DNA from: Ignavibacteriales bacterium
Lineage (GTDB): Bacteria > Bacteroidota > Ignavibacteria > T3Sed10-11
NCBI GenBank assembly: GCA_003568415.1
Contig: PWXV01000169.1
Span: forward strand, 1-59,673
Length of the DNA stretch: 59,673 bases
Direction of reading: 5' to 3'
Both the position numbers and the translations under genes were made by a program. A model generated the notes under the pieces. The model was not told the origin of the DNA. It ran no database searches and saw only the letters and a program-made list of their open reading frames with translations. How positions within the stretch are numbered: position 1 is the first letter of the stretch; each line of letters starts with the position of its first letter. Shown here piece by piece: positions 54,629 to 56,123 of this stretch.

Positions 54629-54765
54629 TTCGCTTAAGTCATCAATTCTCTTTCCACCATTGGCGATGACGGAGTAATCGCAGCACATACCGAATTAAAG
54701 GGGAGCTCTATACCCGCACTCAAAATAATATTTGGGAGTACTACCATGAAATGGCTCAATATTTG

Positions 54766-54793
54766 CTCTCTCTCTCTCTCTCTCTCTCTCTCT
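54766..54793 (+). repeat. (CT)14 microsatellite inside a signal-peptide coding region
   Basis: Fourteen uninterrupted CT units. They lie 17 bp after an ATG at 54746 that has a GGGAG site 7 nt upstream. With 14 units the ATG frame stops at 54848-54850. With 12 or 15 units it would be in frame with the long lipoprotein frame. Confidence 0.95.
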
Positions 54794-54800
54794 GATTCTT

Positions 54801-56123
54801 TTGCTGTTTATGAACATGGGATGCGAGCAAGCGGTAGAAGTATCGAATGAATTCGGAATTGAAAATCCCGTATCCACTTCGCATGCTGAATTAGATCCCG
54901 CCACATTAGAGATACTCGAAGCCGCGTATCAGCAAACACCGATAGAAAAAAGTAACTGGTATACCTACGGCGTTCTCGACCGTGATAGAACCGATTCGTT
55001 TTGTTATGTAGCTTATTCTAATGCAGATGTATACCAGGAATATAGCATGCAAAAAATTGACGGTGAGTGGGTGCTGGGTGAACTGATTAAAAACGAATCG
55101 GCAATCAGAATAGAAAAGAAATCAATACAAAAGACTTTATCCGATACGGCATATACAAAAAAGATCGCAGAGATATTTACAGGACAGCTCCATAATCAGC
55201 TAAGAGATGAATGGTATGTGCCCGGCAATCATCAAGAAACTGGTATATGGACTATTGGCCCTATTCAATATCAAACTGATTTACCTACCCGAGCTGTTTT
55301 CATCGAAGGAACACAAATTGTCGGTAATAAAGAACACAAGATAGAATGGGTTGGACCCTGGGTGTGGACACGTTACTCACATCCATCGGGAAGTCAATCA
55401 TCTAATAATAAGAATACATTTACCGAAATTTTTCATAATGGAGTTTATTATCCATCTCAAGAATTAAAGGCAACATATAGGCATCGAATAACAGAGATAG
55501 GTGTACCGAGTGTTCCTACACAAATATCTCCTGCGAATGGTTTTAACGCAATTGGAACATCTATTTATTTTTCATGGTCGGCATCAAGCGGCGGAGGTAC
55601 AATAACATACAGACTTCAAATTTCGACTCAATCTAATTTTTCAAGTCTGTTTCTAAATCAATCCGGTATTACTAACACAAATAGATCCGTGAGCGGATTT
55701 TCACCGGGTACAAAATATTATTGGAGAGTAAGAGCGGAAAATGAACAAGGAGCGAGTGCATGGTCCTCTGTACGCAGCTTTACATCTCCATTGTCAACAC
55801 CGTCTGTCTCCGCTTCGATTCAAAATGGACATCCGAGAGTCACATGGTCATCAGTGCAGAATGCAAATTATTATGAGATATATAAAAAAATAGATACAAG
55901 TTCTACTTGGTATTTGTACGGATCGACAACAGGTACAACATATACTGACATACATGCAAATGTTTCCGGTTATCAGGGGAGCGGCTATCCAAGGCGAACT
56001 CCGTATGTAGCATATTATGTAGTTGCAAGAGGCAATAATGGATCAAAAAGCAGTAATTCAGTCCAGCATTATTTTGATCTTTCCGATATAACGCCACTTG
56101 GCGATGGAGAAATTATACAATAA
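54801..56123 (+). CDS. Phase-variable lipoprotein with fibronectin type III-like domains (OFF frame)
   Basis: A 440-codon frame that lacks a good start of its own (first TTG at 54801). The natural start is the ATG at 54746, out of frame by one CT unit. One more unit would give a signal peptide MKWLNICSL...ILLLFMNMGC ending in a lipobox-like Cys, so the product should be a surface or outer-membrane lipoprotein. About residues 235-330 and 335-425 look like two fibronectin III-type modules (TKYYWRVRAENEQGASAW is typical). An assembly error in the tract could also explain the frame break. The next gene starts 10 bp after the stop. Confidence 0.8.
   Translation: MLFMNMGCEQAVEVSNEFGIENPVSTSHAELDPATLEILEAAYQQTPIEKSNWYTYGVLDRDRTDSFCYVAYSNADVYQEYSMQKIDGEWVLGELIKNESAIRIEKKSIQKTLSDTAYTKKIAEIFTGQLHNQLRDEWYVPGNHQETGIWTIGPIQYQTDLPTRAVFIEGTQIVGNKEHKIEWVGPWVWTRYSHPSGSQSSNNKNTFTEIFHNGVYYPSQELKATYRHRITEIGVPSVPTQISPANGFNAIGTSIYFSWSASSGGGTITYRLQISTQSNFSSLFLNQSGITNTNRSVSGFSPGTKYYWRVRAENEQGASAWSSVRSFTSPLSTPSVSASIQNGHPRVTWSSVQNANYYEIYKKIDTSSTWYLYGSTTGTTYTDIHANVSGYQGSGYPRRTPYVAYYVVARGNNGSKSSNSVQHYFDLSDITPLGDGEIIQ

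Follow-up and report, generated by a model that had tools for sequence, protein, structure and literature searches.

The 59,673-nucleotide stretch of DNA analysed here (the window; contig PWXV01000169.1 of Ignavibacteriales bacterium, assembly GCA_003568415.1) contains a perfect (CT)14 tract within the signal-peptide coding region of a gene predicted to encode an exported protein, and the arrangement of this locus, together with the occurrence of the repeat at the equivalent site in two related soda-lake-sediment species, makes it very probable that it is a simple-sequence contingency locus subject to translational phase variation by slipped-strand mispairing. Contingency loci built on simple sequence repeats are known mainly from host-adapted pathogens and commensals, where host immunity is the usual explanation, and a limited literature search found no work joining Ignavibacteria with phase variation. 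The mechanism is already known, and the interest of the locus is its setting, its conservation, and the evidence for convergence.

On the forward strand, a Shine-Dalgarno-like GGGAG (54734-54738) precedes two ATG codons in different phases, ATG1 (54746-54748), 7 nt on, and ATG2 (54751-54753), 12 nt on, which are followed by the unbroken CT run at 54766-54793, confirming the description in the first-pass annotation of a (CT)14 tract behind a good start site. The body of the putatively switched gene, from the remainder of the signal peptide onward, spans 54794-56123 with its stop codon at 56121-56123, and the long frame extends over 440 aa from TTG 54801 to this stop (56123). With the 14 units present in the window assembly, the long frame is out of phase with both ATG1 and ATG2, and the ATG1 reading terminates after 34 residues at a TGA (54848-54850), so that 14 units correspond to the OFF state, as had been proposed. 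The same annotation predicted that 12 or 15 units would turn the gene ON with a signal ending in MNMGC. This holds for ATG1, from which n = 12 or 15 gives proteins of 457 or 459 aa with the N-terminus MKWLNICSLSL...LILLLFMNMGC, but the list was incomplete, as n = 13 or 16 opens the long frame from ATG2 and gives 456 or 458 aa beginning MAQYLLSLSL.... Because of this second start codon, the gene is OFF in just one of the three phases (14 OFF, 15 ON from ATG1, 16 ON from ATG2). The locus has the features expected of a contingency locus: a pure repeat whose unit is not a multiple of three lies between start codon and gene body, a change in unit number toggles between an early-stopped and an open frame, and the remaining frame is intact.

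When the window was shuffled 100 times with its dinucleotide composition preserved, no (CT)14 run arose, and the tract is therefore not due to chance. It is the sole dinucleotide run of at least five units in the window, and the search for other long dinucleotide tracts that the first-pass annotation had proposed revealed no further (CT/AG)8+ run in the 3.99-Mb, 95% complete genome and no stretch of 24 nt in which purines and pyrimidines alternate. This genome-wide check consisted of pattern searches for such dinucleotide runs.

A search of 99 genomes, made up of the window's own and those of its relatives, identified two further orthologs that match over their whole available length, both from the same genus as the window. 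Among named genomes, a single-protein scan returned nothing, and an alignment scan then recovered two named MAGs. One ortholog, with 61% identity, is from the metagenome-assembled genome (MAG) Bacteroidetes bacterium CSSed165cm_521R1 (G005; SLQE01000128.1), and the other, with 53% identity, is from the MAG Ignavibacteriales bacterium CSSed11_208 (G003; PWTU01000263.1), whose contig stops within the gene. Both MAGs originate from soda-lake sediment, the CSSed11 data set being among those from such sediment described in PMC6146748. The gene was detected in three of the six species of the genus, the genomes of the remaining three being 68-81% complete. At the site equivalent to the window tract, G005 carries a perfect (CT)13 and is ON from an ATG downstream of TGGAGG, and G003 carries T(CT)14 behind a double start (ATGAATG) comparable to that of the window gene, in which the second of the overlapping ATGs gives an open (ON) reading and the first does not; the counterparts of the window GGGAG, at its position, are TGGAGG and AGAGGA, respectively. 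The tract is therefore kept in three species in differing states, namely n = 14 OFF, 13 ON, and 14 ON via a second ATG.

Comparison of the window gene with the G005 and G003 orthologs revealed that 38% and 30% of four-fold degenerate sites, respectively, are identical, and that NG86 dS is saturated at 2.1 and 2.8 with dN of 0.31 and 0.43, corresponding to a dN/dS of about 0.15. Across 429 aligned codons, all indels are whole-codon and the OFF copy has no frameshift outside the tract. The switched protein is thus under purifying selection, and in view of this and of the restriction to whole-codon indels the OFF copy is not in decay. Leu and Ser codons at conserved positions are identical in just 35-41% of cases, yet the CT run is unbroken in all three species. 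As synonymous sites are saturated and the conserved Leu/Ser codons have mostly drifted, an unbroken CT run of 26-28 bp at one site in three species needs active maintenance, by slippage or by selection; slippage by itself, without selection, could keep the repeat pure for some time.

The surroundings of the gene were also compared. A block upstream of the switched gene (CTTAAGTCATCA...TCTC...GGCGATGAC; window 54638-54676) is found in G005 and not evidently in G003, and is possibly a regulatory leader. The TonB-dependent receptor gene just upstream of the switched gene in the window (52470-54566) seems to have been lost in G005, where only a stretch resembling the 3' end of the receptor gene is left between an NTPase gene and the switched gene (L028, about 7600-7800, - strand). 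Hits in a promoter scan were no commoner than in shuffled sequence, and we claim no promoter.

The switched product is exported and probably lipid-anchored. The Cys codon at 54822 begins a genus-specific N-terminal domain (54822-55502), for which no homologs outside the genus were found among 382 genomes, and Pfam detected an fn3 domain (about 55554-55778) and no outer-membrane protein family. The structure predicted for the protein is mediocre (pLDDT 62). The first-pass annotation had called the product a surface lipoprotein. Its lipoprotein character is suggested by a Gly-Cys pair that is invariant in the three orthologs, although the window lipobox, N-M-G-C, is non-canonical and weak (position -3 is N in the window, I in G005, and M in G003), and the protein may be exposed at the surface. 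A downstream gene (56098-57744, + strand) overlaps or abuts the switched gene and is similarly placed in G005; its predicted exported product has two similar halves, had no match in Pfam, and gave an unusable structure prediction (pLDDT 39). This product is a probable outer-membrane protein and putatively a barrel, and given the position of its gene, polar co-switching with the upstream gene is possible. The next gene, for a small protein with a weak OMP_b-brl match (57828-58433, + strand), is likewise a conserved neighbour in G005 and is not necessarily part of the switch. These two downstream genes both encode probable outer-membrane proteins.

Runs of (CT)11 or longer were found in 25 of the 391 genomes of the class. 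Among 26 distinct runs inspected, eight have, on the CT strand, an ATG no more than 45 nt ahead of them and at least 200 open codons behind. One of these (L035) is probably in a leader rather than a signal peptide, and the other seven make up four gene families: the window gene in its three species, a family shared by genomes G205 and G181, a set of paralogs in G038, and a gene in G034. Four families among 22, set against an expectation of about 2%, give p of about 7e-4, where the 2% is a rough estimate, not a measurement, of the share of positions per strand that would qualify as such ATG-proximal sites. The product of the G205/G181 family is a secreted protein of 407 aa that weakly matches the T9SS sorting tail, and its gene is ON in G205 (n = 13) and OFF in G181 (n = 14). 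The single-contig genome G038 has three paralogs, with n = 13 (OFF), 11 (ON), and 18 (OFF), while in G034, also a single-contig genome, a gene for a 512-aa exported protein is OFF at n = 12 and would be ON at 13. Outside the class, a gene in G663 is OFF at n = 15 and would be ON at 16. Three other hits of the phylum-wide pattern search (G425, G430, and G681) were rejected as switches, having no long frame behind the CT run, and a further hit in G619 is ambiguous. The claim of the first-pass annotation that a free-living bacterium switches an exported protein by means of a dinucleotide contingency tract has strong support from the retention of the tract in three species in different phases, and also from the saturated synonymous divergence, the constrained protein, and these similar tracts in further genes of the class that encode exported proteins.

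A third species of the G205/G181 genus, G261, has an ortholog with 49% identity in which (AC)11 occupies the signal-peptide region where its sisters carry (CT)13 and (CT)14 (L106, about 1460-1482). With 11 units the gene is in frame, whereas 10 or 12 would close it, and the region reads ...FSKHTHTHTHVFKF..., in which the AC repeat is translated as His-Thr and provides no hydrophobic core. Since the encoded peptide differs in G261 yet a slippery dinucleotide persists, this swap of unit is the best argument that what is retained is the property of being a repeat and not the Leu-Ser peptide. In two other genomes an AC tract near an ATG (L110 and L111) was set aside, as no convincing exported gene was associated with it.

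Two further kinds of run were observed. In five genomes of the class (families f22, f9, and f19), (CT)11-14 directly follows a sigma-54-like motif, TGGCACGATTTTTA (L031:1501-1526, L032:1501-1528, L033:1501-1524, L034, and L037; - strand); the next long ORF begins about 210-235 nt downstream in four of them and about 163 nt downstream in L034, and the N-termini of these ORFs are mostly exported-looking, which may represent a transcriptional counterpart of the switch. In addition, (GA)27 lies right after a gene start in two species of one genus (G138 and G071; L045/L046, + strand of the loci), near contig ends. The protein encoded has a membrane segment at its N-terminus and a length of about 500 aa or more, and the gene is a candidate frame-switching locus.

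We considered whether the window tract could instead be a signal-peptide run of fixed length, that is, a Leu-Ser core that grew by chance slippage and is now constant, with the OFF state of the window reflecting a one-unit assembly or amplification error. Such errors do occur in dinucleotide runs of this kind in short-read assemblies, and the assembled tract length in this draft genome may be one unit off; the G005 and G003 orthologs are both open from an ATG, CT repeats are read as Leu-Ser in every frame and are tolerated by a signal peptide, and MutS and MutL are present. However, a constraint on the peptide alone would let the codons drift, as they have at other conserved Leu and Ser positions, and further OFF copies exist in G181 and in two single-contig genomes, G034 and G038 (two of the three paralogs of the latter). 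The His-Thr repeat of G261 likewise fits poorly with the preservation of a hydrophobic core, and overall we regard a fixed run as unlikely. It is much less probable still that the tract belongs to a 5' untranslated or regulatory region, with translation beginning downstream at TTG 54801 or ATG 54813. Some (CT)n runs in other genomes of the class do sit in leaders well upstream of genes, but neither of these internal codons is preceded by an SD-like sequence, initiation at either would remove the signal peptide even though the Gly-Cys after the hydrophobic stretch is invariant in three orthologs, and the tract is read in phase from an ATG with a good SD in both the G005 and the G003 ortholog; we therefore rejected both starts. 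Decay of the window copy into a frame-shifted pseudogene, to which its being out of frame from both ATGs might point, was rejected as scarcely credible given 440 open codons without other lesion, a dN/dS of about 0.15, only in-frame indels relative to G005, and a sole fault that sits in the slippery run.

Under the contingency-locus reading, slipped-strand mispairing during replication would cause (CT)n to gain or lose whole 2-bp units in living cells, and each step would shift the frame, since the run separates the start codons from the gene body. At n = 14 translation would stop after 34 residues, at n = 15 ATG1 would yield the full protein, and at n = 16 it would come from ATG2, probably in smaller amounts given the 12 nt between this codon and the SD, such that three levels of expression would be expected. 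In every ON phase the repeat would be read as Leu-Ser, supplying the signal peptide with its hydrophobic core, and a polar effect may extend the switching to the abutting downstream gene. The window genome encodes both MutS1 and MutL, and since slippage in dinucleotide runs is normally corrected by mismatch repair, its rate may be modest to moderate. A clonal population would always include cells with and without the envelope protein, for which phages, predators, or competitors are plausible selective agents.

A conserved switch in a soda-lake-sediment lineage, paralleled in unrelated genes of the class whose products are exported, suggests that pressures outside hosts, such as phages, can favour such loci. 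We give about even credence to the broader proposal that dinucleotide switches in export signals have evolved recurrently and independently in free-living members of the class, that the hypermutable repeat itself is selected, with a unit that can be swapped from CT to AC, and that phage, predation, or competition, and not host immunity, is the driving force. The replacement of CT by AC at an orthologous site offers a direct test of selection on repeat hypermutability itself. Automated annotation of metagenome-assembled genomes would miss the start of such genes or call them pseudogenes.

Several known systems resemble the window locus. Neisseria opa genes carry CTCTT repeats in the leader-peptide region, whose frame sets the gene on or off; the position of the repeat within the signal peptide and the decisive role of the frame are shared with the window locus, but the opa unit is a pentanucleotide and the outer-membrane proteins encoded are unrelated. 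In lic-type loci of Haemophilus influenzae, a repeat near the 5' end and ATGs in different phases result in graded, not binary, expression. These loci share with the window gene the alternative ATGs close to a 5' repeat, but their units are tetranucleotides and their products lipopolysaccharide enzymes, whereas the window locus has a dinucleotide unit and an exported product. Simple sequence repeats of H. influenzae have been surveyed (PMC2651432). In Helicobacter pylori oipA, a CT run lies in the signal-peptide region, and gain or loss of units shifts the frame and leads to an early stop (PMC10564699). The window gene resembles oipA, and also sabA and babA, in that it encodes an envelope protein and has CT dinucleotide repeats in the part coding for the signal peptide. 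The H. pylori genes encode outer-membrane adhesins of the Hop family and belong to a host-adapted pathogen, whereas the window locus belongs to a soda-lake lineage, has a second start codon, resides in a genome that encodes MutS1 and MutL, and specifies a non-homologous product, a probable fn3-containing lipoprotein. Pfam detected no homology of the switched protein to Hop outer-membrane proteins; thus, while it is not a member of the Hop family, its mechanism is closest to that of the H. pylori CT-repeat loci.
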